Assembly (NCBI GenBank): GCA_934668605.1
Contig: CAKUNY010000049.1
Span: 1-13,490, forward strand
Reading direction: 5' to 3'
Length of the DNA stretch: 13,490 bases
From: an uncultured Oscillospiraceae bacterium
GTDB taxonomy: Bacteria > Bacillota > Clostridia > Oscillospirales > Oscillospiraceae
The notes below the pieces were generated by a model. The model was given only the letters and a program-made list of their open reading frames with translations, ran no database searches and had not been told where the DNA came from. The stretch's first letter is position 1, and the number at the start of each line of letters is the position of its first letter. Of this stretch, positions 1 to 13,490 are shown piece by piece. The position numbers were made by a program, and so were the translations under genes.

Positions 1-38
1 AGTCAGAGTCCGGTGTGCTACCGTTACACAAATCCCCT
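1..38 (-). tRNA. Partial tRNA-Gln (anticodon CUG), 5' half only
   Basis: Read on the minus strand this gives the 5' half of a glutamine tRNA, cut by the window edge inside the anticodon arm. The parts seen in order are: a 7-nt acceptor strand AGGGGAT (38-32), TT at positions 8-9, D stem GTGT, D loop AACGGTA with the invariant GG, D stem GCAC, A26, anticodon stem CCGGA, and loop CTCTGAC. U33 precedes anticodon CUG (complement of 6-4), which reads CAG codons. The T arm, 3' acceptor strand and CCA end lie outside the window, so the fold cannot be completed. A consensus promoter lies just upstream. The first base is A, where many Gln tRNAs have U. Confidence 0.85.
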
Positions 39-68
39 AAATTGCCGCAGCGCCGAAACGCAAGTATT

Positions 69-96
69 ATTATAGCGAGCTTCTTGTATTTGTCAA
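69..96 (-). promoter_or_regulatory. Consensus sigma-A promoter of the tRNA
   Basis: On the minus strand there is a perfect -35 TTGACA (96-91), a 16-bp spacer and a perfect -10 TATAAT (74-69). Transcription would start near 62, about 24 nt before the tRNA 5' end. A match to both hexamers fits a stable-RNA gene. The stretch from 97 to about 267 holds nothing recognisable. Confidence 0.85.
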
Positions 97-267
97 GCAT
101 TATTTTTCAAAAATCAGCAAATCCCGCAAATTTTTCCGCGCCTTCATTTCTCCGCTCTCCAAAACGCGCCGCGCCGCATGAAAAAGGCCATCCGTCTCAG
201 CTTTTGACAAGGAAATCCGCCTTGTTTTTACTAGCCGGTTTCGTGCGTGGAATCGTCCGCTGCGCGC

Positions 268-274
268 CATATTA
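268..274 (+). promoter_or_regulatory. Possible forespore-type (sigma-F/sigma-G) -10 element
   Basis: CATATTA fits the sigma-G -10 pattern (CATNHTA) and lies 37 bp upstream of the SpoIVB-like start codon. SpoIVB is made in the forespore under sigma-F/sigma-G in Bacillus. No good GHATR -35 box is seen at the expected 17-18 bp upstream, so this rests on one short motif plus context. Confidence 0.3.
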
Positions 275-311
275 AGCTTCGAGATCAGCGATTGAGAGAG
301 GATTTTGCGGG

Positions 312-1295
312 ATGAAACACAGGACTTTGACCCTGCGCCGGTCGATTACGGCGCTTTTTTTACTGCTTGCGCTCTGCGGAAAGGCTCTGGCCGCCATGCC
401 GGAAAAGCTCGTGCCCTGCGGCCACACGGCGGGCATCAAGCTCTATACCGGCGGGCTTCTCATTACCGCCCTTGACGAGCAGGCGCCCGCGCAGCGAGCC
501 GGGCTTCGCGCGGGCGATACCATTTTGAAAATTGACGGCACGCGCGTCTCATCGGTGCAGGACGCGACGCTTCGCTTATCGAGCGGCAAAAGCGTCTGCC
601 TCAGCGTCCGCCGGGGCAAAAAGCAGGCGGAATTTTATCTGACCCCCGAGAAAACGGAAACCGGCTACCGCCTCGGCATTTCCGTCCGTGACAACATTTC
701 CGGCATCGGCACCATCACGTTCTTTGACCCAGAAACCGGGGTCTACGGCGCGCTGGGACACGGCGTGGCAGGCCTTACCTCCGCGCAGCCGCTCACCATC
801 TCCGGCGGTGTCCTCGTCAGCTCGAGCGTCACAGACGTCAAAAAGGGCGTGCGCGGCACACCGGGCGAGCTCCACGGCGCGTTCGATGTCTCCTGCCCGC
901 TTGGCTGCGTCCGGCAGAATGAGACGCACGGCATTTTCGGCACCCTCAGCGCCATCCCGGAAAGCGAGGCCGTTTCTGTCGCGGATGCATCGCAGATCCA
1001 TACGGGCGCGGCGGTCATTCTCGCAAACGTCGACGGCGAGGAAACCCGGGAATATTGTGTGCGCATCGATAAGCTTTATCCGCAGGCGGAAAACGGGCGG
1101 AACCTTCTGCTCACCGTCACGGATGAACGCCTTTTATCGCGCACAGGCGGCATTGTACAGGGCATGTCCGGAAGCCCCATTTTGCAGGACGGCAGGCTCA
1201 TCGGAGCCGTCACGCATGTGCTCGTCAACCGCCCCGAGCAGGGCTACGGCATTTTTCTGCAAAACATGCTCGCGCAGTGCGAGGCGTACCAGTAA
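312..1295 (+). CDS. spoIVB: SpoIVB-like PDZ serine peptidase (family S55)
   Basis: This 327-aa protein resembles SpoIVB, the forespore-secreted protease that starts the sigma-K checkpoint by cleaving SpoIVFA. An N-terminal hydrophobic segment (about 11-28) serves as signal or anchor. A PDZ domain follows (about 45-105, with the AGLRAGDTIL motif), then the S55 peptidase domain (about 125-320). The likely catalytic residues are His150 in ALGHG, Asp271 in VTDERLL and Ser286 in GMSGSP. The 15-residue gap from Asp271 to Ser286 matches the gap between Asp363 and Ser378 as I recall them in Bacillus SpoIVB. The protein is about 100 residues shorter than the Bacillus one. AGAGAGGA lies 9 nt before the ATG. 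spo0A, the usual downstream partner, is absent: the next gene is convergent. It could therefore be a second SpoIVB paralogue. Confidence 0.88.
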   Translation: MKHRTLTLRRSITALFLLLALCGKALAAMPEKLVPCGHTAGIKLYTGGLLITALDEQAPAQRAGLRAGDTILKIDGTRVSSVQDATLRLSSGKSVCLSVRRGKKQAEFYLTPEKTETGYRLGISVRDNISGIGTITFFDPETGVYGALGHGVAGLTSAQPLTISGGVLVSSSVTDVKKGVRGTPGELHGAFDVSCPLGCVRQNETHGIFGTLSAIPESEAVSVADASQIHTGAAVILANVDGEETREYCVRIDKLYPQAENGRNLLLTVTDERLLSRTGGIVQGMSGSPILQDGRLIGAVTHVLVNRPEQGYGIFLQNMLAQCEAYQ

Positions 1296-1326
1296 AACAG
1301 TCCCAGGAAGCGTCTGCCTCCCGGGA
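1294..1326 (-). terminator. Intrinsic terminator of the zinc-ribbon gene
   Basis: In minus-strand RNA the arms at 1326-1316 and 1311-1301 form an 11-bp stem with a 4-nt loop, followed by CTGUUUU. Two of the pairs are G·U wobbles. In plus-strand RNA these become A·C mismatches, so the hairpin is built for minus-strand transcripts. The U-tract overlaps the TAA stop codon of the convergent spoIVB-like gene. Confidence 0.6.
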
Positions 1327-1334
1327 TTTCAATT

Positions 1335-1622
1335 CTACGCTTCTTGTGCCGCGGCCTTTTCCGCGCGCTCCTTTGCGGCTTTTTCCTTATTATGCTTCGC
1401 GATTTCCATCATCTGCTCATACATCTGGTCGCCGACGCACTTTCTGGCGTATTTGCACCACTGGACGCAGCTGAGCATGTCGTTGTAGATCACGAAGCCG
1501 CACTTGTCGCAGGTCACCTCGGTGTCGGTCGAAAAAATTTCAACGGGATTTCCGCACTGCGGGCAGATTTTCTCCGCAATGGAAATCTCCTTGGATTTGC
1601 TCTGGCAGCCGGAATACAGCAT
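1335..1622 (-). CDS. Small eight-cysteine zinc-ribbon protein, function unknown
   Basis: This 95-aa soluble protein has no function I can name. It has a rubredoxin/zinc-ribbon-like core of two CxxC pairs (Cys20/Cys23 in CPQCG, Cys38/Cys41 in CDKCG). A second cysteine cluster follows (Cys52, Cys56, Cys62, in the segment SCVQWCKYARKC), and there is one more Cys at 6. The tail (about 66-95) is a charged, Ala/Lys/Glu-rich helix. The start was chosen at the ATG at 1622 because AAAGGGGAG lies 7 nt upstream and the conserved-looking cysteines begin right after it; a longer reading frame continues upstream but overlaps the divergent regulator. It is transcribed away from the Crp/Fnr-type gene and shares its control region, which suggests that the regulator acts on it. 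The second cluster could bind a further metal or an Fe-S centre; this is inference. Confidence 0.8.
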   Translation of the reverse strand: MLYSGCQSKSKEISIAEKICPQCGNPVEIFSTDTEVTCDKCGFVIYNDMLSCVQWCKYARKCVGDQMYEQMMEIAKHNKEKAAKERAEKAAAQEA

Positions 1623-1657
1623 GGCGCACTCCCCTTTCTGTGCTTGTCCTTCTGGAC

Positions 1658-1686
1658 TTGTCTTTCTGATCGTATTATAGTACAAT
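1658..1686 (+). promoter_or_regulatory. Promoter of the Crp/Fnr-family gene
   Basis: TTGTCT (1658-1663), a 17-bp spacer and TACAAT (1681-1686) form a good sigma-A promoter. Transcription would start near 1693, about 39 nt before the start codon. The palindrome at 1701-1716 lies just downstream of this start, a position suited to self-repression. Confidence 0.6.
1674..1679 (-). promoter_or_regulatory. -10 element for the zinc-ribbon gene, no -35 box
   Basis: A perfect TATAAT is read on the minus strand (1679-1674), placing the start near 1667. At 17 bp upstream there is no TTGACA-like sequence (CAGAAC), so the promoter probably needs an activator. It overlaps the divergent promoter of the regulator gene. 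Confidence 0.55.
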
Positions 1687-1700
1687 GGTGCAAGAGGTTC

Positions 1701-1716
1701 TGTTTGAATTCCAACA
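1701..1716. promoter_or_regulatory. Near-perfect 16-bp palindrome, likely Crp/Fnr-type operator
   Basis: TGTTTGAATTCCAACA pairs in 7 of 8 positions. Its centre (1708.5) is about 41.5 bp upstream of the predicted start of the zinc-ribbon transcript, the classic class II activation position for CRP/FNR proteins. It is also just downstream of the regulator gene's own start site. Binding by the adjacent regulator is inferred from position and symmetry. Confidence 0.5.
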
Positions 1717-1731
1717 CGAGGAGGCCGTATC

Positions 1732-2406
1732 ATGGAAAAATATTTGCCGCTGCTGCAAAAATCGCCGCTCTTTTCCGGGATGGAGCCCAGGCAGATCCAG
1801 TCGGTTCTGCATTGCGTGGGGGCATTCGTGCGCGAGGCCGGCGCGGGCGAGTATATTCTTCCCGCCGGAAGCCAGACGCAGGCGATGGGGCTTCTTCTCT
1901 CCGGCTCCGCGCTTGCCGTGCAGGAGGACTTGTGGGGTGAGCGGAACATCATGGGAAAAATCCAGCCACCCGGCACGTTTGCAGAGCCCTTCGCCGCAAC
2001 GCCCGGGGCGGTTCTGAACGTGAGCATCGTCGCAAACGCGCCGTCAAAGGTCATGTTTCTGAGCATCCAGCGCACACTCACCGTCTGCTCGGAGACCTGC
2101 CCGCAGCACGCGCAGCTCATCCGGAACCTCGTATCCGTTCTGGCAAAGAAAAATTTGCAGCTGAACGATAAAATCACCCACATGAGCAAGCGCCGCACGC
2201 GGGAAAAGCTTCTGTCCTATCTCTCGTCCGAATCGCTCCGGCAGGGCTCTTTGGAGTTTGATATCCCCTTCGACCGCCAGCAGCTGGCAGACTATCTGTG
2301 CATCGAGCGCTCTGCCATGTCCGCGGAGCTCTCCCGGCTTCAGAAGGAAGGGCTCTTGCAGACCGAGCGCTGCCATTTCCGTCTCATCACGCCGCTTGCG
2401 CGTTAA
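1732..2406 (+). CDS. Crp/Fnr-family transcriptional regulator
   Basis: This 224-aa protein has the two-domain Crp/Fnr layout: an N-terminal beta-roll sensor domain (about 10-120), a dimerisation helix (about 122-150), and a C-terminal winged helix (about 153-222). The helix-turn-helix sequence includes DRQQLADYLCIERSAMSAEL. The cAMP pocket signature is not evident, so cAMP is an unlikely ligand. Cysteines at 28, 119, 123, 190 and 214 leave room for a redox, haem or NO-type signal, but there is no clear FNR N-terminal cluster motif. GAGGAGG lies about 8 nt before the ATG. It is divergent from the small cysteine-rich gene. Related clostridial regulators often control nitrosative or redox stress genes; that role here is a guess. 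Confidence 0.87.
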   Translation: MEKYLPLLQKSPLFSGMEPRQIQSVLHCVGAFVREAGAGEYILPAGSQTQAMGLLLSGSALAVQEDLWGERNIMGKIQPPGTFAEPFAATPGAVLNVSIVANAPSKVMFLSIQRTLTVCSETCPQHAQLIRNLVSVLAKKNLQLNDKITHMSKRRTREKLLSYLSSESLRQGSLEFDIPFDRQQLADYLCIERSAMSAELSRLQKEGLLQTERCHFRLITPLAR

Positions 2407-2432
2407 CGAATCCTCCCGGAATCCGCCCCTTC

Positions 2433-2467
2433 TTTAACGCCGCTTTAACGTACTTTCGCGGTATAAT
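2433..2467 (+). promoter_or_regulatory. oadG promoter with tandem TTTAACG operator
   Basis: Two identical 7-mers TTTAACG (2433-2439 and 2444-2450) are separated by 4 bp, an exact 11-bp period. The second ends 11 bp before a perfect -10 TATAAT (2462-2467), and the operator covers the -35 position (GCCGCT, not a -35 match). This is the same layout as PhoB/PhoP boxes, where a tandem-bound OmpR-family regulator replaces the -35 contact. Transcription would start near 2474. A further TTAACG (2403-2408) overlaps the stop codon of the preceding gene and is out of phase. Confidence 0.72.
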
Positions 2468-2515
2468 GACACCCGAAATCGGCCGCGACGCGGCTTTGGA
2501 AGAAGGAGAAAAAAG

Positions 2516-2872
2516 ATGTTTCTGATTAACCAGGCAATGGTAGATGTTCCGATCGGAACGGCAGCTCTGATTGTCGTGCTCGGTATGGCAGTCGTCTTTT
2601 TCGGCCTTATTTTGCTGATGCTGGTCACCAAGGCCTCCGGCAAGATCATGCAGAATAGAGAAGCCGCCGCTGCGGCCGCCGCTCCTGCTCCCGCGCCTGC
2701 CGCTCCCGCTGCCCCCGCCGCAAAGGCATTTGCTCCCGGCTCGGCCGGCGAGGTCAAGCTCCACGACGTTCCCGACCGGACGGCCGCGATGCTCATGGCC
2801 ATCGTCGCCGACAAGCTCGGAAAGCCTCTCAACGAGCTGCGCTTCATCTCCATCCGCGAGATCAAGGACTGA
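2516..2872 (+). CDS. OadG-family sodium-pump gamma subunit
   Basis: This 118-aa membrane protein matches the gamma chain of Na+-translocating decarboxylases (oxaloacetate, methylmalonyl-CoA or glutaconyl-CoA), which tethers the carboxyltransferase to the membrane beta subunit. One membrane segment (about 14-38) is followed by a flexible Ala/Pro linker (about 49-72) and a small C-terminal domain (about 78-118, with DVPDRTAAMLMAIVADKL). GAAGGAG lies 7 nt before the ATG. No alpha, beta or biotin carrier subunit is next to it: it forms a single-gene transcript between a TTAACG-controlled promoter and a strong terminator. The rest of the pump must be encoded elsewhere, or the protein has a stand-alone role. 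The exact decarboxylase cannot be told from this subunit. Confidence 0.8.
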   Translation: MFLINQAMVDVPIGTAALIVVLGMAVVFFGLILLMLVTKASGKIMQNREAAAAAAAPAPAPAAPAAPAAKAFAPGSAGEVKLHDVPDRTAAMLMAIVADKLGKPLNELRFISIREIKD

Positions 2873-2891
2873 TCCTACATAGCAATTGCAT

Positions 2892-2925
2892 CGTGCCGCA
2901 TGGCTTTCCATGCGGCGCGTTTTTT
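2892..2925 (+). terminator. Strong intrinsic terminator after oadG
   Basis: A 12-bp stem (2892-2903 with 2908-2919, one G·U pair, core GCCGCATGG/CCATGCGGC) has a CTTT loop and is followed by six T residues (2920-2925). It lies 20 bp after the oadG stop codon and isolates that gene from the symporter downstream. Confidence 0.92.
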
Positions 2926-2948
2926 GCTGTCCTGTTCAGATTTTGTGT

Positions 2949-2983
2949 ATTTTACCCACTTTACCCGTTAAGCATGCGTTAAT
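2949..2983. promoter_or_regulatory. Tandem TTAACG operator upstream of the symporter
   Basis: CGTTAAG (2966-2972) and CGTTAAT (2977-2983) repeat with an 11-bp period; on the minus strand they read ATTAACG and CTTAACG. They are the same half-sites as at oadG and the sensor operon. The orientation is reversed relative to the symporter, and on the minus strand a TAAAAT (2954-2949) follows the last half-site by exactly 11 bp, as at oadG. So the site may drive a leftward transcript as well as, or instead of, controlling the symporter. Confidence 0.6.
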
Positions 2984-3016
2984 ATCGGTCATATTGCCTT
3001 TTCCGCATCCAGTTCC

Positions 3017-3025
3017 TGTGATAAA
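3017..3025 (+). promoter_or_regulatory. Weak extended -10 element for the symporter
   Basis: TGTGATAAA resembles an extended -10 (TG, one base, GATAAA) with no good -35 at 16-18 bp; the nearest TTGCCT (2994-2999) is 20 bp away. The tandem operator is centred about 57 bp upstream of the implied start near 3032. This is only a candidate. Confidence 0.3.
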
Positions 3026-3085
3026 CTGGGTGCAGAAGGAAGCCGCTTTGCGCGGCATCCGGTTCTGAAAGAAAAGGAGAGTATT

Positions 3086-4333
3086 ATGAAAGAAAAGAAG
3101 AAACTGAGTCTGCCGATCCAGATCTTTATCGGCATGGCCGCCGGTATCGTTGCAGGTCTGATCTGCGCATTTGCAAACTGGGGCGATTTCACAAAGGAAT
3201 GGATCAAGCCCATCGGCACGATCTATGTAAACCTTCTGAAGTTCCTCGTTGTGCCCGTTGTTCTGTTCTCCATCGCCGACGGCGTCATTTCCCTCAACGA
3301 CCTCAAGCGCGTCGGCTCGGTCGGCCTCAAAACCTTCGTCTACTACATGTTCACGACCGCGCTTGCCGTTGTCATTGGCCTTCTCATGGTCAATCTCTTC
3401 AAGGGCAACTTCACAAAGCTTCCCTCCGCCGAGCTCGGTGAGCTTGCGTACGAAGCAAAAGAAGCTCCTTCCGTCATGAGCGTCATCGTCAACATCTTCC
3501 CCGACAACTTCTTCAAGCCTATGGTGAACGCCGACATGCTGCCGGTTATCGTCATTGCCATCTTCCTTGGCGCAGGCTGTCTCGCTGCGGGCGAAAAGGG
3601 CGCAAAGATCGCCGACCTCATCAACTGTGGTCAGGAAGTCGTCATGAAGATCATGATGATGATCATCAGCTTCACCCCCTACGGCGTGTTCTGCCTGATG
3701 ACGAACGTCGTCGCGGAAAACGGCCCGCAGATCATCGGAAAGCTGGCGCTTATTATCGGTGTCGCCTACCTCGGCTACATCATCCACGTGGTCGTTGTCT
3801 ATGGCCTTTCCGTCAAATTCCTCTCCAAAATGAGCCCCATCGCCTTCTTCAAGGGTCTCGCCCCGGCGATGATCACGGCCTTTACCACCACGTCCTCCAA
3901 CGCGACGCTCCCGGTCAACATCGAGTGCTGCAACAAGATGGGCGCGGAGCCCGAGATCAGCGCGTTCGTCCTGCCGCTCGGCGCGACGATCAACATGGAC
4001 GGCACGGCCATCTATCAGGCAGTCGCGGCGGTCTTTATCGCCTGCTGCTATGGCATTGAACTGACCCTCGGCGACATGGCCATGATCGTTCTGACCGCGA
4101 CGCTCGCCTCCGTCGGCACCGCCGGCACCCCGGGCGCGGGCATGATCATGCTTGCTATGGTTCTGACGCAGGTCAAGATCCCCGTTGAGGGCATCGCGCT
4201 GATCGCAGGCGTCGACAAGCTCTTCGACATGGGACGCACGACCCTCAACATCACCGGCGACGCCACCTGCGCGCTCTGGATCTCCCGCCTCGAGCGCGAG
4301 AAGCGTGAAAAGCTCGCCAAGGCCAATAAATAA
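3086..4333 (+). CDS. Glutamate/aspartate-type cation:dicarboxylate symporter
   Basis: This 415-aa transporter of the SDF (DAACS) family imports acidic amino acids or dicarboxylates with Na+ or H+. The length and eight-helix-plus-two-hairpin pattern are normal. Key motifs are the HP1 serine-rich loop TTTSSNATLP (267-276), NMDGT in TM7 (303-307), the HP2 tip GTAGTPGAG (344-352), and TM8 DMGRTTLNITGD. In TM8, Asp381, Arg384, Asn388 and Asp392 are all present. In GltPh the matching Arg binds the side-chain carboxylate and the Asp the amino group; DctA proteins lack that Asp. Glutamate/aspartate is therefore more likely than C4-dicarboxylates. AAAGGAG lies just before the ATG. It stands alone, with a tandem TTAACG operator upstream. 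Confidence 0.9.
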   Translation: MKEKKKLSLPIQIFIGMAAGIVAGLICAFANWGDFTKEWIKPIGTIYVNLLKFLVVPVVLFSIADGVISLNDLKRVGSVGLKTFVYYMFTTALAVVIGLLMVNLFKGNFTKLPSAELGELAYEAKEAPSVMSVIVNIFPDNFFKPMVNADMLPVIVIAIFLGAGCLAAGEKGAKIADLINCGQEVVMKIMMMIISFTPYGVFCLMTNVVAENGPQIIGKLALIIGVAYLGYIIHVVVVYGLSVKFLSKMSPIAFFKGLAPAMITAFTTTSSNATLPVNIECCNKMGAEPEISAFVLPLGATINMDGTAIYQAVAAVFIACCYGIELTLGDMAMIVLTATLASVGTAGTPGAGMIMLAMVLTQVKIPVEGIALIAGVDKLFDMGRTTLNITGDATCALWISRLEREKREKLAKANK

Positions 4334-4370
4334 CCAGTTCCATCCTTTCTGACGCGCACCCCCTTGCAAA

Positions 4371-4397
4371 GCGCCCGCCGGCTCAGCCGGCGGGCGC
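4371..4397. terminator. GC-rich hairpin between convergent genes
   Basis: A perfect 12-bp stem GCGCCCGCCGGC/GCCGGCGGGCGC (4371-4382 and 4386-4397) closes a 3-nt loop, 37 bp after the symporter stop. It lacks a real U-tract: AAAAAC follows on the plus strand and TTTGC on the minus strand. It is probably a transcription end or RNA 3' stabiliser for the symporter, but is not a textbook terminator. Confidence 0.5.
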
Positions 4398-4431
4398 AAA
4401 AACTATTTCATGAACAAGTTTCCGGTTTGTT

Positions 4432-4536
4432 CGTAGGGGTCGATGCCCACATCGACCCAAGGGAAGTGCGAATTCGCCGAAGATTTCCATAATATCAAGT
4501 TACTCCGCTGGGGCGATGTGGGCATCGCCCCCTACG
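4432..4536. repeat. MITE-like palindromic repeat, copy A
   Basis: This 105-bp element is bounded by 27-bp imperfect inverted repeats (4432-4458 and 4510-4536), starting CGTAGGGG and ending CCCCTACG. Each repeat is itself a hairpin with a 9-bp stem: GGGTCGATG/CATCGACCC with loop CCCA on the left, GGGGCGATG/CATCGCCCC with loop TGGG on the right. The core carries CGAATTCGCCGAAG (4469-4482), found inverted in copy B. Homology appears to continue outside the right repeat at 4551-4563. No reading frame or target-site duplication is seen. It sits between the convergent symporter and response regulator genes. Confidence 0.8.
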
Positions 4537-4577
4537 GACGTCCCGAAAGGTTTCCGAAATTCCACGCAGGCAGCCGT

Positions 4578-5285
4578 TTAGTCGCCTTCGATCATGCGGT
4601 AGCCGATGCCGACTTCCGTGAAAATATAGACCGGCTGGGCGGGGTTCTGCTCGATTTTACGGCGGATATTCGCCATATTGACGCGCAGGATCTGGTTGTC
4701 GCTCCTTGCGCTCGGCCCCCAGAGCTCCTTGATGAGATAATCATACGTCAGCACCTTGCCCGCGTGAAGACCAAGAAGCGCGACGAGCTTATACTCGTTC
4801 TGCGTCAGATTCGCGTCCTGGCCTGCGATGAAGACCCGGTGCTTGGCATAGTCGATGGTCAAGTCTCCCGCCTTGAAAATGCCGGTATTCGCCACGGCCT
4901 CGCTGCCCGCAGGCGTTCTCGTGTGGCGGATAGCCGCGCGGATTCTGGCCAGCAGTTCGCCCGTTCCGAAGGGCTTTGTCAGATAATCGTCCGCCCCCGC
5001 GTCCAAGGCCTCGACCTTGTCTCTTTCATGCGTCCGGGCGGAGACGACCAGAATCGGCACCTTCGACCAGCTTCTGACCTTGCGCAGGATCTCCATCCCG
5101 TCCACATCCGGCAGACCCAGATCGAGAATGATCACGTCCGGACAGTGCGAGGCGATCATGCTCTCCCCCATCGCGCCCGTGCGGGCAAGCAGAACGTCGT
5201 AATCGTTCGCTGTGAGCACCGCCTGCATGAAGTTGCGGATGGTCTGCTCGTCTTCAATTACCAGAATCTTCTCTCGAATTTTCAT
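4578..5285 (-). CDS. KdpE-like OmpR/PhoB-family response regulator
   Basis: This 235-aa protein has a receiver domain (about 4-118) with acidic Glu11/Asp12, phosphoacceptor Asp55 in IILDLGLPD, Ser82 and Lys104 in KPF. An OmpR/PhoB winged helix follows (about 135-232), with recognition-helix region QILRVNMANIRRKIE and the wing GIGYRM. The start at 5285 (MKIREK) is set by GGAGG 8 nt upstream and by the start of the receiver fold; the frame stays open further upstream but would overlap the kinase more. It overlaps the 3' end of the sensor gene by 32 bp, so the two are translationally linked. It resembles KdpE, but no kdpFABC potassium pump is in the window. The 11-bp tandem TTAACG sites in this window are the type of DNA such a regulator binds as a head-to-tail dimer. 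Confidence 0.9.
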   Translation of the reverse strand: MKIREKILVIEDEQTIRNFMQAVLTANDYDVLLARTGAMGESMIASHCPDVIILDLGLPDVDGMEILRKVRSWSKVPILVVSARTHERDKVEALDAGADDYLTKPFGTGELLARIRAAIRHTRTPAGSEAVANTGIFKAGDLTIDYAKHRVFIAGQDANLTQNEYKLVALLGLHAGKVLTYDYLIKELWGPSARSDNQILRVNMANIRRKIEQNPAQPVYIFTEVGIGYRMIEGD

Positions 5286-6402
5286 TGCTTCGTTCCTCCA
5301 ATGGCAGTGTAAAGCTGAACAGCGCGCCGCCCAACTCGCGGTTTTCCGCCTGCATCGTGCCGCCGTGTGCCTGCACAATGCTCATGCAGACCGAAAGCCC
5401 GATGCCCATATTTCTTCGGCCGTCCGCCGTCAATTCCTCGTCGTGCGAAAGATAGCCCTTGAAAAGCTTGGGAAAAACCTCTCTCGCAATGCCCTGTCCG
5501 TTGTCCGCGACCTCAAAGCGCGCGTTCTCGCCGTCTTTTCGCAGCTGAAGCTCGACGCGCGTGGTCGTTCCGCCGTGCTGGATGGAGTTTTCCATCAGAT
5601 TGATGAGCACCTGCTCGATCAGGATCACGTCCATCGGGATCATCAGCAGCTCCTGCGGCGCGCGCACGGAAACGGCAATGTCCGGATAGTGCTTTTTTAT
5701 CTTCATGGCGGCGGCGCTCAGAACCTCCTCGCCCGCCTCCATCTCCTTTTTGATCTTCGTCTGTTCGCCCGTCATGCGTGTGACGGAAAGGAGGTTTTCA
5801 ACCACGCTCACGAGCCAGTTCGATTCGTCCCGGATGTTTTCGAGCAGCTGCTTTCTTGTCGCCTCATCGAGCTGATCGCCGGAGTCCAGAAGTGTGCTGA
5901 CGCCGCCCACGATCGAGGTAAGGGGCGTTCTGATATCGTGCGACACGGCGCGAAGAAGATTGCCCCGCATCTTCTCTTTTTCAGCCTCGGCGCGGATCTT
6001 CTCCTGCTGCTTGATCTGCGTGGTCAGCGTGCTGACAACGATGGACACGATCAGCATCACAAGAAACGTCAGCGGATACCCAGAGATCGTGAAATTCAGC
6101 TGATAATATGGAAACGTAAAGATATAGTTGATGCCGATGACGCCCACGACGGAGGACAGAAGGCCAAACAGATACCCGTCCGTGAACCGGGAGACGAGCA
6201 CGACCGTCAGCTCAAAAATGAGCGCAACATAGACGTCGCTGTCGTCGATCGTCCGCAGAAAATAGCAAATCATCGTCGCCGCTGCGAGAAGAGAAATGAA
6301 AATGCCGAAGTCGTGCCACGTAAGCACGAAGCGCAGCGGCGCCTTTTTTGGTTGATGCAGATCCGTTCCTGTTTTCGTCAAATTCCTCACCCAATTTATC
6401 AT
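5254..6402 (-). CDS. Short KdpD-like sensor histidine kinase (DUF4118)
   Basis: This 382-aa kinase corresponds to the C-terminal half of KdpD. It has four close-packed membrane segments (about 31-49, 56-71, 78-97 and 110-127; the DUF4118 four-helix module), a short coiled linker, a HisKA domain with phosphoacceptor His155 in SHDIRTPL, and a HATPase domain. The HATPase shows an N box (NLMENSIQHG, 268-277), a G1 box (DNGQGI) and a G2 box (GIGLS). The cytoplasmic KdpD and USP domains of full-length KdpD (about 900 aa) are missing, so it probably senses through the membrane module. The ATG at 6402 has no ribosome binding site and lies inside a TATGAT -10-like sequence. A later TTG (6381) follows GGTGAGG, but only 3 nt away, so the start is unsettled. 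Confidence 0.9.
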   Translation of the reverse strand: MINWVRNLTKTGTDLHQPKKAPLRFVLTWHDFGIFISLLAAATMICYFLRTIDDSDVYVALIFELTVVLVSRFTDGYLFGLLSSVVGVIGINYIFTFPYYQLNFTISGYPLTFLVMLIVSIVVSTLTTQIKQQEKIRAEAEKEKMRGNLLRAVSHDIRTPLTSIVGGVSTLLDSGDQLDEATRKQLLENIRDESNWLVSVVENLLSVTRMTGEQTKIKKEMEAGEEVLSAAAMKIKKHYPDIAVSVRAPQELLMIPMDVILIEQVLINLMENSIQHGGTTTRVELQLRKDGENARFEVADNGQGIAREVFPKLFKGYLSHDEELTADGRRNMGIGLSVCMSIVQAHGGTMQAENRELGGALFSFTLPLEERSNENSREDSGN

Positions 6403-6465
6403 ATCATGCCGCGCGCCGTTTTCGCCGTTAAGATTCCGTTAAATCCTTCGGGTACTTCCGTTAAG
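6398..6465 (-). promoter_or_regulatory. Sensor-operon promoter region with three TTAACG half-sites
   Basis: On the minus strand the half-sites are CTTAACG (6465-6459), TTTAACG (6443-6437) and CTTAACG (6432-6426). The last two are 11 bp apart and the first lies exactly 22 bp further up, so all three are in phase. A TATGAT (6403-6398) is a candidate -10; at 17 bp upstream of it is GGCGAA, not a -35 box, directly next to the last half-site. This fits autoregulation by the response regulator. Confidence 0.65.
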
Positions 6466-6488
6466 AGCAGCTGCGCGCGGCGCACAGC

Positions 6489-6517
6489 AAAAAAGGCTCG
6501 TGGGTCAGCCACAAGCC
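6489..6517 (-). terminator. Intrinsic terminator of the ABC exporter operon
   Basis: In minus-strand RNA a 9-bp stem (6517-6509 with 6503-6495, one G·U pair) closes a 5-nt loop and runs straight into six U residues (6494-6489). It lies 12 bp after the stop codon of the second exporter gene and before the sensor-operon operator sites. Confidence 0.9.
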
Positions 6518-6528
6518 CCTTTTCTATT

Positions 6529-8352
6529 CTATGCCGGTTCTCCCCCGCGCAAAAACGCCTGCATCGCCTGCTCGCGGTACTGGCGCGTGTAGAGCGCGTA
6601 ATACGCGCCCTTTCTCTCCATAAGCGCGCGGTGCGAGCCCTGCTCGATGATCTTGCCATCCTGCACGACTAAAATCACGTCCGCCCTTCGGATCGTCGAG
6701 AGCCGGTGCGCGACGATGAACGACGTTCTTCCCTGCATCACGGTTTCGATCGCCTGCTGCAATTTCTGCTCCGTGATCGTGTCAACGGAGGATGTCGCCT
6801 CGTCTAGCACGAAAATCCGCGGGTCGGCCAGAAGCGCCCGTGCAAACGACAGCAGCTGCTTTTCGCCTGTAGATAGGCTGCTGCCGCCCTCGCCGACCTG
6901 CGTGTCATACCCCTCCGGCAGACGCGCGATGATCTCGTCTGCGCACACGGCCTTGACGGCGGCTTCCATCTCCTGCATCGTCGCGTCGGGTCTTCCGTAG
7001 CGCAGATTTTCCAGCACCGTACCCGAAAACAGATGCGGCGTTTGCAGCACATAGCCAATATTCGCATGCAGCCACAGCTGGCTTCTTTCCCGCGCGTCGC
7101 GCCCGTCGATGAGCACCTGCCCGCTCGTCGGCTCATAGAACCGGCAGACGAGGTTCACAAGCGTCGATTTGCCCGCGCCTGTCTCGCCGACGATGGCGAC
7201 CCTTGTCCCCTGCGGAACCTCCAAGTTGAAGTGCTCGAGCACATTTTCCTCTCCGTCCGGATAGCGGAAGGTCACGTTGCAAAATGAAATATCCCCGTGA
7301 AGCGGCTCCCAGTTCTCTTTCTTCGGTTCGAACGCATCGCCGTATTTTTCTGTAACCTCCGGCGTGTCGCGCACGTCGGACTGCGTGTTCAGAAGCGCCG
7401 TGACGCGCTCGATGTTGACCTGCACGTTTACAAGGTTTGAAAACACCTGCACCAGCCACTGGATGGGCTCCATCATGCCCTGCGCGTAGTTCATGAACAC
7501 CGAAAGCGTACCGATAAGCATCACGCCCTGCATTGTGAGCATGCCGCCCTGCCACAAAACGATGGCCAGTGCCGCCGAGGCCGCGAACGCCGTTGTGGAC
7601 ATGAAAAGGCTCCGGAAGTGCATTTCCTTCACGCTCTCGCGCTTCATCTCTCCCGTGAGTCCCCGGAATTCCTGTTCCATCTTTTCTTCGATCACAAGCG
7701 TCTTCGTCGTCTTCGCGCCCGTGATGCCCTCGTTGAAGCCGGAGGTGATCTTCGAGTTCTGCTCGCGCACTCTGCGGTGATGGAAGACGAGCTTCTTCTG
7801 GAAATACACGCTGGAAATCGCAAGCACCGGCACGATCGCCATCACGCACAGCGCAAGTTTCCAGTTGAGCGCGAACATCATTACGATCGCCAGCACCAGA
7901 TACGCCACGTACCAGACCGCCTCCATGAGCCCCCAGGCCAGAATCGTTGCGATCTTGTCCGTGTCGGACATCACGCGCGCGTGGATGTAGCCGACGCTGT
8001 TCTGATTGAAATAGGAAAAGGACAGCGTTTGCAGATGGTTAAAGCAGACTCTCTTGAGGTCGCGCCCGATATACATTTCCGCCTTGCACGCGGCAAGCGC
8101 CGAGACGCAGTTTGTCGCCGTCTGGACGATCATGACGAGAATGTAGAGCGCGAGAAAGCCGCCGAGCCCCGCGAGCGTTTCATTCGCGATATAATGGTCG
8201 ATCGCGTACTGCTGAAACAGCGGGATCACCGCGTCCATCGCGCTCCCGATAAACCCCAGCGCCACCATGTCGACCAGAACCAGCCGCCCGTAGCCCTTGA
8301 GATACGGAAAGAGCTTCGGAATGCCGAACCAGCGAAGCTTTTCTTTTTTCAT
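6529..8352 (-). CDS. ABC exporter half-transporter with catalytic Glu and LSTGE signature
   Basis: This 607-aa protein is a type IV (B-family) ABC exporter half: a six-helix transmembrane domain (about 20-310) fused to an ATPase domain (about 350-595). Walker A is GETGAGKST (389-397), the Q loop is Gln437, and Walker B ends Asp517-Glu518 with the normal catalytic glutamate; the switch histidine is His549. The signature is LSTGE (493-497) rather than LSGGQ. It is the partner of the gene just upstream: its ATG overlaps that gene's TGA (ATGA), with GAGGAGG about 7 nt before it. As in LmrCD, BmrCD or TM287/288, it supplies the catalytic Walker motifs of the working ATP site. The substrate is unknown; drugs or lipids are typical. 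Confidence 0.93.
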   Translation of the reverse strand: MKKEKLRWFGIPKLFPYLKGYGRLVLVDMVALGFIGSAMDAVIPLFQQYAIDHYIANETLAGLGGFLALYILVMIVQTATNCVSALAACKAEMYIGRDLKRVCFNHLQTLSFSYFNQNSVGYIHARVMSDTDKIATILAWGLMEAVWYVAYLVLAIVMMFALNWKLALCVMAIVPVLAISSVYFQKKLVFHHRRVREQNSKITSGFNEGITGAKTTKTLVIEEKMEQEFRGLTGEMKRESVKEMHFRSLFMSTTAFAASAALAIVLWQGGMLTMQGVMLIGTLSVFMNYAQGMMEPIQWLVQVFSNLVNVQVNIERVTALLNTQSDVRDTPEVTEKYGDAFEPKKENWEPLHGDISFCNVTFRYPDGEENVLEHFNLEVPQGTRVAIVGETGAGKSTLVNLVCRFYEPTSGQVLIDGRDARERSQLWLHANIGYVLQTPHLFSGTVLENLRYGRPDATMQEMEAAVKAVCADEIIARLPEGYDTQVGEGGSSLSTGEKQLLSFARALLADPRIFVLDEATSSVDTITEQKLQQAIETVMQGRTSFIVAHRLSTIRRADVILVVQDGKIIEQGSHRALMERKGAYYALYTRQYREQAMQAFLRGGEPA

Positions 8353-10199
8353 GCCGGCTCCTCCTCTCCCACAGCCATCTGCACCTGATAAATCTCGCGG
8401 AACAGTCCCTCCTGCTGCAAAAGCTCCTCCGGCGTTCCGAGCTGCCTGACCCTGCCATGCTCCAGCACCAGCACCCGGTCGCAGCCGAGCAGCGTCAAAA
8501 TCCGGTGCGACACCAGGATCTGCGTCACGCCGCTGACCCGCTCGGATAAATTCTTCCGGATGCTCTCATCTGTCTCCGTGTCGACCGCGGAAAGCGAATC
8601 GTCAAAGACGATCACGGGCGTTTTCTGCGTCAGCGTCCGGGCAATCGCCACGCGCTGCTTCTGCCCGCCGGATAGGGTCACGCCGCGCTCTCCGACCATT
8701 GTATCGTAGCCCTTGGCAAACTGCCGGATATCGCCGTCGACGCATGCGGTAATTGCCGCCTCGCGAATTTCCTCCGCCGTTGCGCCGGTAATGCCGATGT
8801 TTTCTTCGATCGTCCGCGAGAACAAAAACGGCTCCTGCAAGACAACGCCGACATGCTCGCGCACCCATTTGGCAGGCATGGACGCGAGATCGACCCCGCC
8901 GACCGTAATTTTGCCCTTCGCCGGGGCGTAGAGTCTGCTAAGTAAGAGCAGCAGCGTGCTTTTTCCGGAGCCCGTCGCACCCAGAATGCCGAAGCTGGAG
9001 CCCGCCGGGATCGTAAAGCTCACGTCATGCAGAATCTCTAGGCCCGTCTCATAGGAAAACGACACGTGCTCGAACGAAATGTCCTTGTTCATCGGCGCAG
9101 GACTTGCACCGGGCGCGTCTTCTTCTGCCGGCGCGTTCAGAACCTCCGCCAGCCGGTCAACGGAAACGCCCGCCTTGCTCATCTCCGAGATCATGCGCCC
9201 GAGCCTTCTGACCGGCGTAATGAGCATCGCGTTATAAAAGGCAAACGAAATGAACTCGCCCTTTGTCATATCGCCGTTCACGCAGAGAATGCTGCCGAAG
9301 ACAACGACCAGCATCACCTGCAAGCAGCTCGTCACATCGCCAATTGCCCAGAACTGCGAGAGCGTGTAGCAGAGCCTCACCCAGAGGTTCGTATATTCCT
9401 GATTCTGCGCCTCAAAGCGCTCGCGCTCAAACGCCTCCCGGCCAAACGCGCGCACCACGCGCACGCCCGTGAGATTCTCCTGCGCGATCGTCGACAAAAC
9501 GCCCTCGGCCTCGTCGCAGTCCGTAAAGCGCTCGCGGATTTTGTTGTGAAACAGAAGCGAATATAAAATGATGATCGGGAACATGACGAGCGCGATGATG
9601 GAGAGCCGCCAGTTCATCGCGACCATGCACGCAAGAGACAGAACGATCAGAACGACGATCCGGAATACGGACACGAACTGCTCCTGAAAGAACGTTTTGA
9701 TGCGCTCGACATCCGCCGTACAGCGCTGGATGATATCGCCCGTCGCGTTTTTCATGTGCCAGCTCCACGGCAGGCGCTCGATCTGGTGATACAGCAAATC
9801 GCGGCTGGTCTTTACCATCGTCTCGCACGCGACGGAGCTATAGAGGTTCATCGCGTACCGGAACGCCGCCGACAAAAGCCCGACAGCAATCAGCATCCCT
9901 GCCAGAAGCCCCATATGCGCCCTGAAATAGCCGCTTCCTCCGAGCCCATTCCAGACGGCAAGAAGCCAGCCCGGAAGCCGCACGGGCTTATCTCCGATCA
10001 CCGAGTCGACCGTCAGCCGCAGAATCTGCGGAATGATCAGCTCCAGCGCCGTAAAGATCACGCCGGAGAGAATGCAGATCACAAAATACCGAACGCTGCC
10101 GCGCAGCATCCGGCGCAAAACGGCTCCGTTCCCGGAGCCTTCCTTCCTGTTTTTCAAATTCCGTATCTCCAATTTTCGTTCATTTTCAAATTCTTTCAC
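8349..10199 (-). CDS. ABC exporter half-transporter with degenerate ATP site (Asp for Glu)
   Basis: This 616-aa protein is the first gene of the exporter pair: transmembrane domain (about 35-345) and ATPase domain (about 373-600). Walker A is GATGSGKST (407-415), the Q loop is Gln455, the signature is a canonical LSGGQ (509-513), and the switch is His565. After Walker B the catalytic glutamate is replaced by Asp534 (VFDDSLSAVD). So this subunit gives a good signature to the working site and a poor Walker B to the other, the exact complement of its partner. The predicted start is a GTG at 10199 with only TGGGG upstream. A TTG at residue 28 with GGAG before it is an alternative, as the first 25 residues are charged and unlike the family. 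Repeat copy B lies upstream; no clear promoter was found. Confidence 0.93.
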   Translation of the reverse strand: MKEFENERKLEIRNLKNRKEGSGNGAVLRRMLRGSVRYFVICILSGVIFTALELIIPQILRLTVDSVIGDKPVRLPGWLLAVWNGLGGSGYFRAHMGLLAGMLIAVGLLSAAFRYAMNLYSSVACETMVKTSRDLLYHQIERLPWSWHMKNATGDIIQRCTADVERIKTFFQEQFVSVFRIVVLIVLSLACMVAMNWRLSIIALVMFPIIILYSLLFHNKIRERFTDCDEAEGVLSTIAQENLTGVRVVRAFGREAFERERFEAQNQEYTNLWVRLCYTLSQFWAIGDVTSCLQVMLVVVFGSILCVNGDMTKGEFISFAFYNAMLITPVRRLGRMISEMSKAGVSVDRLAEVLNAPAEEDAPGASPAPMNKDISFEHVSFSYETGLEILHDVSFTIPAGSSFGILGATGSGKSTLLLLLSRLYAPAKGKITVGGVDLASMPAKWVREHVGVVLQEPFLFSRTIEENIGITGATAEEIREAAITACVDGDIRQFAKGYDTMVGERGVTLSGGQKQRVAIARTLTQKTPVIVFDDSLSAVDTETDESIRKNLSERVSGVTQILVSHRILTLLGCDRVLVLEHGRVRQLGTPEELLQQEGLFREIYQVQMAVGEEEPA

Positions 10200-10237
10200 A
10201 CATGCCCCACGGGATTTCTGAAATTCCCCCGTCTATG

Positions 10238-10344
10238 CGTAGGGGACGATGCCCACATCGTCCCGGCAAATAAAACCGTTTTTACAGAAACCTTCGGCGA
10301 ATTCGATGGTGCCCTTTGGGTCGATGTGGGCATCGACCCCTACG
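10238..10344. repeat. MITE-like palindromic repeat, copy B
   Basis: This 107-bp element is homologous to copy A in inverted orientation. The 27-bp terminal repeats (10238-10264 and 10318-10344) each fold into a 9-bp-stem hairpin: GGGACGATG/CATCGTCCC with loop CCCA, and GGGTCGATG/CATCGACCC with loop TGGG. The core carries CTTCGGCGAATTCG (10292-10305), the exact reverse complement of the copy A core motif. A flanking GGGATTTCTGAAA (10211-10223) lies at the same 14-bp offset as its counterpart beside copy A. It sits between the HAD gene and the ABC exporter operon and fills most of the gap. Confidence 0.8.
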
Positions 10345-10368
10345 GCTTTGTTGACATTCTCCCGCAAA

Positions 10369-11031
10369 TCAGGAATTCTGTATCACATCAATCGCCTCGT
10401 CGAGCCTTGCGCACCTGGCGTAACAGAGCCCGGGAAGCTCCAGAGTCGGGTCAAACAGATCCGGCACGATGATCACCGGGAAGCCTCCGTTCGCGCCCGC
10501 GAGAAGCCCGTTGCGCGAGTCCTCAAACACGGCGCACGTTTCCGGGGATTCTTTTCCCAGCGCGCGCATGGCAAGCGTAAAAATCTCCGGGTCTGGCTTG
10601 CTTTTTTTCACCTGATCTCCGCCGACGATCGCCGCGAAAAAGTCCAGTACGCCCGCATTTTCCAGATACCCCCGCGCAATATCCGCCGCCGTCGAGGTCG
10701 CCAGCGCGCAGGGGATGTTTTCCGCCCGCAGCCATGAAAGAAGCTCCCGCAGCCCCGGCTTCACCGGAACGCCGTTTTCTCGGATATAATCATCCATCCA
10801 CGCGCGAAACCGCTTGAGGCACACCGCGCCCTCCTCCGGGCAGCCCGGAAACAGCTGCGGAAACTTCGCAATCGCCGCCTGCTGGTTGAGGCCGATGAGC
10901 TGCTTCATCTTCTCGCGCGAAAACCGGTAGCCGAGCTTCTCCCCGATATCCGTCTCAAACGCGCGGAGAAACAGCTCCTCCGTGTCGAACATCAGCCCGT
11001 CCATATCAAAAATCGCGGCGTTGAATTTCAT
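10369..11031 (-). CDS. HAD-superfamily phosphatase, beta-phosphoglucomutase-like
   Basis: This 220-aa cytoplasmic hydrolase belongs to HAD subfamily I with an alpha-helical C1 cap (about 16-85). Motif I is FDMDG with nucleophile Asp9 and general acid Asp11; motif II is the ATST stretch (111-114); motif III is Lys145 in KSKPDP; and motif IV is Glu170-Asp171 in FEDS. The family covers sugar-phosphate phosphatases and beta-phosphoglucomutases, and the motifs alone do not choose a substrate. Its ATG overlaps the stop codon of the upstream 489-aa gene (ATGA), so the two are translated together. The upstream gene has no ribosome binding problem, so this one may rely on re-initiation. Repeat copy B lies 24 bp after the stop; no T-rich terminator was seen. 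Confidence 0.92.
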   Translation of the reverse strand: MKFNAAIFDMDGLMFDTEELFLRAFETDIGEKLGYRFSREKMKQLIGLNQQAAIAKFPQLFPGCPEEGAVCLKRFRAWMDDYIRENGVPVKPGLRELLSWLRAENIPCALATSTAADIARGYLENAGVLDFFAAIVGGDQVKKSKPDPEIFTLAMRALGKESPETCAVFEDSRNGLLAGANGGFPVIIVPDLFDPTLELPGLCYARCARLDEAIDVIQNS

Positions 11032-12497
11032 AATGCTTCTTCCTTCTTTTCACCAAGTAGTAAAACTGTTTTGTCTTCCTTCCGCTTCTCGCGGAACACA
11101 AGGTTCCACGTCGCCCGCTTCTCCTTTTCCCGCCGAAGCTGCGAGCAGACGACGTCCTTTCCCATCGCAACCGCGACCGCCCCATCCGCGCCGCCGATCA
11201 CGCCGAACGCACAGCCGGAAAAATCGCCGTGAGAAATCGTGATCGACTTTCCAAAATCGCGCAGCGTCACGCTGCCATCGGGCGCTTCAGGCGCAATGGC
11301 ATAGGAAAGCTCGGTCGTGTAAACCGTTTCATCGAAAAGCGGCAGCTCCTCGGTATGCAGCGCCAGCGCCGTGAGCGTATAGGCTTCCGGCTTTCCCGGA
11401 AGCCGGAACGTGATGCTCTCGCCCGCCCGCTCGGGACTGAATTCCTGCCCCAGAACCTCGATCGGATTTTCCCAGATCGAGAGTGTGAGCGTTCGAAGCT
11501 TCGTCTCCCTCTTCCCGTCCCACGGAAAGCACAGCCGCTGCACCCGCCAGAACTCGGATTCGTCCAGATCATAGTGCATCCGGACGCGCTTGGCCTCCCG
11601 GTCGTTCCCTTCCGGATACAAAGCGTCCCAGCTCAAGCCATAGCCGTGGCTCTGCGAGAGCGTCCGGCCGTTGACCGTAAGCCTTGCGCCGATATCATCA
11701 TGAAATGGGTCTTCCGCATTCGCGCGGATGCGCTTTGCCTCATCCCAGTCGCTGCCGTCGTTTTCTCTGGAGAGGTTCCAGGCTTTCCGGAACGAAAACA
11801 CGTTCTCGACCGGCACACGCTTTATGATATCCAGCACGATCCCCTCTTTGCAGACATACGCCGCCGGAACCAGCCACTCGTCTTCCGCCCAGGAAAACGT
11901 CTTTTTTAGCGAAAGCTCCTTTCCCGGCGTTCCGTGCGCGCCCCAGAAGCCGCTCTCAAATGTGACCTTCCAGGGCTCTTCCCGCGCCTCCGGCGCAATA
12001 TCGTCGTCGTAAAATTCCTCCGGAAAGCGGAGCTTGCCATAATCAAAGCCGGACTGCACCGTGTGGATATATTTCCAGGGCTCCACCATCGGGCGCAGAT
12101 GAAACGTGAAGACGATTCTATCGAGCGACGCCATCTGCTCGTCGCTTGACGGGTGCTTCTGCTCAAACTCCTCCAGCTGCGCCGCGTTCCACTGCCACGC
12201 CTGCTCGATCGCCGCCGCGTCATGCAGCGCCAACAGCAGCCGCAGAAAATCGCGGAACGATTTGGCGACCGGATGCACGCAATTCTCCCGCCCGTTCATC
12301 GGGCTGACGGCAAACACCGTCTCCCCGAAGCCGCGCACAAAGCAGAAGTGGATCCCGTCCACCCCGCTCCGGCCAAACACCCGCGCGCCCTTCGGCGTAC
12401 AGAAATACGGCTCAAACGGCTCGTCCACCCGCATCACGCCCAGCGGCGCAAGATCGACATCCGTTTTCAAAAATTGGCGGTAGGTCAGCTTCGTCAT
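11028..12497 (-). CDS. Unrecognised 489-aa soluble protein
   Basis: I do not recognise this gene. The product has no signal peptide or membrane segment. The first 110 residues (including DGIHFCFVRGFGETVFAVSP and a following helical stretch FRDFLRLLLALHDAAAIEQAW) recall an SMI1/KNR4 (SUKH)-type fold, but this is only an impression. The rest is mixed alpha/beta, rich in Trp, Glu and aromatic residues. It has two His- and Trp-rich stretches (133-147 and about 184-190, FWGAHG) and a beta-rich C-terminal third that ends in a lysine/glutamate-rich tail. The start at 12497 has GGGAGG 8 nt upstream. It is the first gene of a two-gene operon, with an ATGA overlap to the HAD phosphatase, suggesting linked function. 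Confidence 0.75.
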   Translation of the reverse strand: MTKLTYRQFLKTDVDLAPLGVMRVDEPFEPYFCTPKGARVFGRSGVDGIHFCFVRGFGETVFAVSPMNGRENCVHPVAKSFRDFLRLLLALHDAAAIEQAWQWNAAQLEEFEQKHPSSDEQMASLDRIVFTFHLRPMVEPWKYIHTVQSGFDYGKLRFPEEFYDDDIAPEAREEPWKVTFESGFWGAHGTPGKELSLKKTFSWAEDEWLVPAAYVCKEGIVLDIIKRVPVENVFSFRKAWNLSRENDGSDWDEAKRIRANAEDPFHDDIGARLTVNGRTLSQSHGYGLSWDALYPEGNDREAKRVRMHYDLDESEFWRVQRLCFPWDGKRETKLRTLTLSIWENPIEVLGQEFSPERAGESITFRLPGKPEAYTLTALALHTEELPLFDETVYTTELSYAIAPEAPDGSVTLRDFGKSITISHGDFSGCAFGVIGGADGAVAVAMGKDVVCSQLRREKEKRATWNLVFREKRKEDKTVLLLGEKKEEAL

Positions 12498-12527
12498 GCA
12501 TCACGCCTCCCTCGGTTTCTTTCTTCC

Positions 12528-12555
12528 ATTGTACACAAAATTTCCAAAATTTCAA
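12528..12555 (-). promoter_or_regulatory. Promoter of the 489-aa gene / HAD operon
   Basis: On the minus strand there is TTGAAA (12555-12550), a 16-bp spacer and TACAAT (12533-12528). Transcription would start near 12521, about 24 nt before the start codon. It is divergent from the promoter at 12577. Confidence 0.7.
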
Positions 12556-12576
12556 CCGCCCGCGGCCAGAAGCCGG

Positions 12577-12605
12577 TTGACAAGGCCGCCGGAAGTTTCT
12601 ATAAT
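12577..12605 (+). promoter_or_regulatory. Perfect consensus sigma-A promoter
   Basis: TTGACA (12577-12582), a 17-bp spacer and TATAAT (12600-12605) match the consensus in all twelve positions and in spacing. The start would be near 12612, leaving a leader of about 73 nt before the ATC-hydrolase-like gene. No terminator-like hairpin was seen in that leader. Confidence 0.85.
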
Positions 12606-12684
12606 CCAGTTAGACTTCTTAAACCATTTCCGTCTGCATTGCACCGCAAAAACGCGCGGCAGCAGACCACAGGAGGCATGAGCC

Positions 12685-13314: not shown

Positions 13315-13435
13315 GCGGACACGAAACGGAACAGACGCAGCTCGTCCGCGACCGGCAGAAGAAATCCCGCGTTCGACGCGTCGCACGAAGAATATAGAGA
13401 AACCCCCGGTTTTACCTAATCTCATTAAGATAAGC

Positions 13436-13475
13436 AACAGCCCAGATCTTCAGCTTGAACGGTCTGGGCTGTTTT
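13436..13475 (+). terminator. Likely terminator after the ATC-hydrolase-like gene
   Basis: An 11-bp stem AACAGCCCAGA/TCTGGGCTGTT (13436-13446 and 13463-13473) has a 16-nt loop that can form a small inner hairpin (TTCA/TGAA) and ends in TTTT. It lies 121 bp after the stop codon; nothing recognisable fills 13315-13435. Confidence 0.7.
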
Positions 13476-13490
13476 GCAAATATTAAAAAA

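Follow-up and report, generated by a model that had tools for sequence, protein, structure and literature searches.

The locus analyzed here raises the question of whether a two-component system can be tied, through one short repeated sequence, to a Na+-pump subunit and a Na+-coupled symporter encoded beside it. It lies in a stretch of 13,490 nucleotides from an uncultured Oscillospiraceae bacterium (contig CAKUNY010000049.1, positions 1 to 13,490, assembly GCA_934668605.1), hereafter the window, in which a first-pass annotation had noted TTAACG half-sites in front of an oadG-like gene, a symporter gene, and a sensor kinase gene and had proposed a small local regulon of the KdpE-like response regulator encoded with the kinase. 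From the sequences compared, the interpretation of this system as the small regulon of the KdpE-like regulator is well supported. Moreover, it is very probable that a KdpDE-derived, autoregulated system controls Na+-pump subunits together with a Na+-coupled symporter, where binding, the direction of control, and the signal are predictions.

Tandem TTAACG Repeats in the Window

The comparison within the genus included three genomes, namely G001, the nearest relative in the scan, an Oscillospiraceae genome whose regulator is 99% identical to that of the window, G002, whose regulator is 83% identical, and G033. The elements on which the argument turns are as follows.

2434..2450, forward strand: box before oadG, TTAACGccgctTTAACG, an exact match to the motif; identical in G001, TTTACGccaaaTTAACA in G002
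2462..2467, forward strand: oadG promoter -10 element, TATAAT, separated by 11 bp from the second half-site upstream of it
2516..2872, forward strand: orphan oadG-like gene, Na+-pump decarboxylase gamma subunit (PF04277, 9.6e-16)
2966..2982, reverse strand: box before the symporter, TTAACGcatgcTTAACG, directed away from the gene; TTAACAagactTTAACA, likewise reversed, in G002
3086..4333, forward strand: gene for an SDF family Na+:dicarboxylate/amino-acid symporter (PF00375, 1.5e-128)
4578..5285, reverse strand: KdpE-like response regulator, receiver and winged helix (PF00072, 4.4e-28; PF00486, 2e-19)
5254..6402, reverse strand: DUF4118 sensor histidine kinase without the cytoplasmic N-terminal part of KdpD (PF13493, PF00512, PF02518)
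6398..6403, reverse strand: -10-like element TATGAT preceded by TG, 22 bp after the last kinase half-site; TATGAT in G001, TATTAT in G002
6426..6464, reverse strand: triple box before the kinase, TTAACG-N16-TTAACG-N5-TTAACG; the 22 and 11 bp spacing is kept in G001, a pair in G002

The seven half-sites start at 2434 and 2445 (forward strand, oadG), at 2966 and 2977 (reverse strand, symporter), and at 6426, 6437, and 6459 (reverse strand, kinase), exactly where the first-pass annotation had placed them and with the spacing that it had described, neighbours being 11 bp apart in three cases and 22 bp apart in one. The window as a whole contains nine exact copies of TTAACG, against 3.63 expected from shuffles, and at least nine were reached in 4 of 200 shuffles. 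The two further copies form an overlapping palindrome, CGTTAACG, located at 2401-2408, where the crp-like gene has its stop codon, so the supposed restriction of TTAACG to three intergenic regions does not stand. This palindrome is retained in G001 and not in G002. The tandem arrangement TTAACG-N5-TTAACG occurs three times in the window and in none of 1500 dinucleotide shuffles of it, and TTAACG is the only hexamer with three exact 11-bp tandem pairs there, the runner-up having two. The repeats read forward toward oadG and the kinase and backward relative to the symporter.

Conservation of the Boxes in Congeners

At orthologous promoters, where conservation had been proposed as a check, the box is kept before the kinase and oadG in two congeners and before the symporter in the single congener that has the symporter orthologue (G002). 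The kinase box of G001 reads TTAACA-N16-TTAACA-N5-TTAACG, while the boxes of G002 read TTAACA-N5-TTAACA (kinase), TTTACG-N5-TTAACA (oadG), and TTAACA-N5-TTAACA (symporter, in the same reversed orientation as in the window), and in the congener alignments the TTAAC cores and the -10 elements stand out from the diverged surrounding DNA. Since these forms differ from those of the window, the predicted consensus of the box is TTAAC(A/G)-N5-TTAAC(A/G), occasionally with TTAG or TTTA, so that the sixth position of the TTAACG half-site first proposed is A or G. G001 has, as its closest symporter, a 58% relative preceded by the inexact box TTCACG-N5-TTAACA. Second copies of oadG in G001 and G033 have no such pair within 300 bp upstream, and they directly follow coding DNA, which is oadA in G001 (the G033 copy was read by eye).

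Only three exact TTAACR-N5-TTAACR sites are present in the 3.2 Mb of G001, at the kinase, at oadG, and within a predicted gene, and three in the 2.0 Mb of G002, at the kinase, at the symporter, and in the space that separates a Na+/Pi carrier from a PhoB-like regulator. In G001, the sites of the kinase and of oadG sit on separate contigs, and the word local in the original proposal has to be given up. In G033, neither a regulator match at 1e-60 nor an orphan oadG, a close symporter, or a perfect box was found, a joint absence that fits the regulon and is only suggestive because this genome may be incomplete.

Kinase Promoters across Clostridia

When the genome collection was scanned, 37 loci were found to encode the regulator at an identity of at least 54% (loci L038-L055, with a regulator identity of at most 40%, were left out), which together with the window, and after removal of six truncated or late-starting kinases, provided 32 usable kinase promoters. 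The motif TTARCR-N5-TTARCR was searched in the 350 bp before the kinase, with an expectation from shuffles and with the reversed motif as a control. Perfect boxes are present in 15 of the 32 promoters, against 0.03 expected and none for the reversed motif, and all 15 are directed at the kinase; within one mismatch, 20 of 32 promoters have a box, against 0.79 expected and two for the reversed motif. The small-regulon interpretation is thus supported, as far as it can be read from sequence, both at the orthologous promoters of the congeners and at this wider set of kinase promoters. Three of the five one-mismatch boxes are forward, and an exact site at a kinase promoter is found in 8 of 30 genomes. 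A small open reading frame (ORF), recognized by eye, precedes the kinase in L012, L013, L016, and L017, four of the twelve promoters with no box, thus the promoter may lie further upstream in these loci. A hydrophobic ORF of about 50 residues, beginning with MGNIG in several cases, was seen by eye directly before the kinase in L007, L008, L009, L012, L013, L015, L016, and L017.

Candidate Targets

Target families were examined in 31 genomes, and the upstream regions of SDF, oadB, and AGCS genes were taken from the starts of the profile matches. A perfect box is found upstream of three of seven members of the symporter subfamily (window included) and of none of 24 other SDF carriers. Similarly, it precedes 3 of 13 oadB genes of the G001 type, defined as those sharing 60% identity or more with the copy at C61 of G001, and none of 23 other oadB genes (21 plus 2), the shuffle expectation being at most 0.03 perfect boxes in each of the SDF, oadB, and AGCS sets. 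The standalone state of the G001-type oadB was looked at in four loci, and the operons of the other type in G001 only. Outside the genus, the box accompanies the symporter subfamily in one genome (G066) and one oadB type in three. In family genomes with no regulator of at least 60% identity, symporter genes of 52-59% identity have a box in none of eight cases, two of these genomes having a distant regulator (G041, 53%; G036, 48%). A copy at a contig edge (L247 of G081) and a partial 77% match in G007 were left out of the symporter counts. Of the targets first suggested, the symporter gains support from these counts, and one oadB type is added as a further candidate.

A post hoc list of near matches in G001 includes a PutP-like gene, an AGCS gene, an oadB, and an AtpI-like gene (names by eye). 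AGCS was tried as a target and rejected, with perfect boxes in 0 of 28 upstream regions and boxes within one mismatch in 2 of 28, where shuffles predict 0.60 and the reversed motif reaches 4 of 28; another count gave 0 of 29 perfect and 3 of 29 within one mismatch. The AGCS site of G001 lies 363 bp upstream of the gene, and the upstream DNA compared in G002 spans 310 bp. Sites at Na+/Pi carriers were set aside as possibly belonging to PhoB. Locus L368 of G001 (1649-7871) contains a PhoB-like regulator and a kinase-like gene between Na+/Pi carrier genes, with TTAACA-like repeats, and in L166 of G002 a PhoB-like regulator stands beside a Na+/Pi carrier with TTAACA-like repeats between them. Several oadB loci, including L340 (2668-2826) and L299 (1253-1414), show by eye a leader with GGGAGTAG and CGTCA elements; compared with the yybP-ykoY Mn2+ riboswitch, two of seven loci match below the threshold (21.3 and 16.6 against 45 bits).

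Regulator Identity and DNA Recognition

The window regulator has the receiver and Trans_reg_C domains of OmpR/PhoB response regulators (PF00072 and PF00486) and its closest solved structure is that of KdpE (4KNY), in agreement with the KdpE-like label that it had been given. It scores 222.2 bits against the KdpE equivalog NF007820, below the cut-off of 325 and the best of 98 families. Its recognition helix, ILRVNMANIRRK, is unchanged across the six orthologues that were aligned and is not that of three other G001 regulators, a second KdpE-like, a PhoB-like, and a YycF/WalR-like protein, all named after the best NCBIfam match, each below the cut-off. According to an excerpt of the study of KdpE, R193, R200, and T215 are important for DNA binding, and the KdpE site consists of six-base direct repeats with a five-base spacer (PMC3264566). 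These residues align with R201, R208, and T223 of the window regulator, and the equivalent of R201 is an aspartate in the PhoB-like and YycF-like regulators of G001. The 6-bp direct repeats, the 5-bp spacer, and the three residues all correspond to KdpE-type DNA recognition, and binding is predicted.

Promoter Layout and Proposed Mechanism

The KdpE-like regulator (4578-5285) would bind, as a dimer on one face of the DNA, to head-to-tail TTAAC(A/G) half-sites 11 bp apart, and through these boxes it would control the operon that encodes it together with the kinase, as well as the orphan oadG and the SDF symporter. In relatives, it could also control one oadB type and the same symporter subfamily. 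In PhoB-activated promoters, the box takes the place of the -35 element, about one turn before the -10 element. At the oadG promoter, the -35 place (17-bp spacer) reads GCCGCT, a poor match judged by eye. Among the 15 perfect kinase boxes, a -10-like hexamer follows at 10-11 bp in 11 cases, at 22 bp in three, and is missing in one, counts that have no shuffle control and in which the hexamer at the 10-11 bp gap is second-ranked in L020 and L022; TG precedes the hexamer in 13 of the 14 promoters that have one. The kinase box stands one turn further upstream in the window and in the two congeners G001 and G002.

Because the box occupies the -35 place and the -35 match is poor, this layout suggests activation at oadG and at most perfect-box kinase promoters, which would proceed in PhoB fashion, with the box replacing the -35 element 10-11 bp before the -10 element. 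The symporter box is upstream and reversed, thus both activation from a distance and repression are possible there. The signal might be a membrane or ion state, probably Na+-related, read by the DUF4118 kinase, and to specify Na+ or membrane energy as this signal is a guess. A Na+ function of the regulon is plausible.

Weighing of the Regulon and Its Alternatives

Several observations weigh against a regulon of this extent. Even with one mismatch allowed, twelve of the 32 kinase promoters lack a box, two of the one-mismatch boxes (L007 and L009) are reversed and far upstream, and in a separate draw of family genomes, limited to loci where the kinase start was aligned and enough upstream DNA was present, only one of six kinase promoters has a box (0.02 expected). 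The perfect box is missing upstream of 4 of the 7 symporter-subfamily genes and of 10 of the 13 G001-type oadB genes, and oadB and the kinase of G087 are divergently oriented, so that a single box common to both is counted in the two sets. Of the three exact sites in each genome, one is intragenic in G001 and one in G002 is flanked by the Na+/Pi carrier and the PhoB-like regulator. A lack of genome-wide enrichment had been named beforehand as an argument against the proposal, and over 30 genomes exact boxes do number 52 against 56 for the reversed motif, so that frequency alone is uninformative. With one mismatch allowed, the motif is rarer than the control in the three congeners (41 against 182, 13 against 57, and 5 against 51), which may be due to base composition.

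It might be argued that the boxes are genuine Pho boxes of a PhoB/PhoP-type regulator, since the architecture is alike and the half-site is close to the TTAACA-type consensus of the Bacillus PhoP box; moreover, the exact G002 site before the Na+/Pi carrier lies beside a PhoB-like regulator, and an inexact one is found between the corresponding G001 genes. However, the pst operon promoter of G001, which alone among the three congeners has a PstS match, carries TTTACA-N5-TTTACA upstream of pstS, and the box under study differs from this repeat. Furthermore, G is the last base in 13 of the 30 half-sites that make up the 15 perfect kinase boxes, the box accompanies the kinase-regulator operon across species, and another recognition helix is found in the PhoB-like protein of G001, all of which makes an assignment to Pho quite unlikely. 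An assignment to WalR/VicR, suggested by the fact that TTAACA-N5-TTAACA reads TGTTAA-N5-TGTTAA when reversed and thus fits the B. subtilis WalR consensus TGTWAH-N5-TGTWAH (as quoted in an excerpt of PMC9210968), is very improbable. Indeed, G001 encodes a YycF/WalR-like regulator (L088; YycF is the best NCBIfam match, below the cut-off), but its recognition helix is different, the perfect kinase-promoter boxes are forward in 15 of 15 cases, and the window sites depart from the consensus because it disallows the G with which all seven half-sites end (CGTTAA when reversed).

A narrower explanation would accept autoregulation as real and regard the oadG and symporter pairs as bystanders, kept by common descent or through some other regulator encoded nearby, for example the crp-like protein. 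Both genes are close to the kinase operon in the window, and the identical oadG box of G001 is, by itself, weak evidence because G001 is so closely related. Nevertheless, the box cores stand out in the diverged DNA of G002, oadG and the kinase operon are on different contigs in G001, and boxes occur outside the genus at the symporter subfamily of G066 and at one oadB type in three genomes. In addition, the Crp-type site is a palindrome, unlike the head-to-tail 11-bp repeats found here. Autoregulation alone is therefore an unlikely account.

Relation to Known Systems

The KdpE-like regulator and its kinase resemble E. coli KdpD/KdpE in the regulator family, in the equivalents of R193, R200, and T215, and in the DUF4118 domain of the kinase, which corresponds to the transmembrane region of KdpD, as far as the excerpted description of that system goes (PMC3264566). 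In contrast, the half-site of the window is TTAAC(A/G), the candidate targets are Na+-pump subunits and a Na+ symporter, and the kinase lacks the cytoplasmic N-terminal part of KdpD. With 382 residues, it contains DUF4118, HisKA, and HATPase only, and it reaches 166.3 bits against the KdpD equivalog (cut-off 1123), the best stretch starting at model position 649. Among the seven window proteins scanned, the others being named by eye, neither kdpFABC nor another K+ transporter was found. A second KdpE-like regulator (214.6 bits, also below the KdpE cut-off) is encoded in G001 (L365, 7400-12428), next to TrkA and TrkH and together with a longer, Usp-bearing KdpD-like kinase whose match to KdpD starts at model position 250. 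A K+ role is less likely for the window pair because its kinase lacks the cytoplasmic KdpD part and because of this second pair beside TrkA/TrkH.

PhoB/PhoP and their Pho box share with the system of the window the OmpR/PhoB fold and head-to-tail repeats of 11 bp that precede the -10 element by about one turn and take the place of a -35 element, whereas the recognition helix of the window regulator differs and the G001 pst promoter has its own TTTACA-N5-TTTACA. The C. difficile RR_1586 is likewise an OmpR-family regulator with an 11-nt direct-repeat motif, targets proposed by comparative genomics, and predicted autoregulation, but its consensus is a repeated DRTTAAGNWWW and its targets include signalling, sporulation, and germination genes, according to an excerpt of the report (PMC6222199). 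A literature search on the decarboxylase with KdpE, two-component, or response regulator returned no such regulon among the matches listed, as judged from titles and the starts of abstracts, which is weak evidence of novelty.

Other Features of the Window

The genes of the window encode a SpoIVB-like peptidase, a zinc-ribbon protein, a Crp-like regulator, the OadG-like protein, and the SDF symporter, followed on the opposite strand by the regulator and the kinase, and then two ABC exporter genes (named by eye). The OadG-like protein falls just below the cut-off of TIGR01195 (32.4 against 36.05 bits), and the nearest named NCBIfam models of the symporter are GltP and DctA, both with scores far below the cut-offs. 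The true kinase start, to judge from the sequence, may be a TTG at 6381 instead of the ATG at 6402. Within 6379-6403, this ATG falls inside the -10-like element and GAGGA precedes the TTG, and the G002 kinase gene can begin directly behind this same sequence. An interspersed inverted-repeat element has two intergenic copies (4420-4548 and 10228-10345), and traces resembling it, translated, were seen by eye in loci of relatives. No RNA family reached the Rfam gathering threshold in the window, ARAGORN found no tRNA in it, and a plasmid search with the window gave a single short match, to the symporter.

Possible Implications for the Na+ Cycle

Many gut anaerobes rely on a Na+ cycle based on Na+-pumping decarboxylases and Na+ symporters. 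A tentative, though by no means remote, extension of the small-regulon interpretation is that a KdpDE-derived pair lost the cytoplasmic KdpD part, became uncoupled from K+, and came to be dedicated to regulating the Na+ cycle of gut Clostridia, in which one box could balance Na+-exporting decarboxylase subunits (the orphan oadG and one oadB type) against Na+-importing symporters, while the second, TrkA/TrkH-linked pair would serve K+. If this is true, a transcription factor linking pump subunits with symporters would offer a handle on the Na+ cycle. For a little-described kind of DUF4118 kinase, a box, a promoter layout, and directly testable candidate targets are now available.

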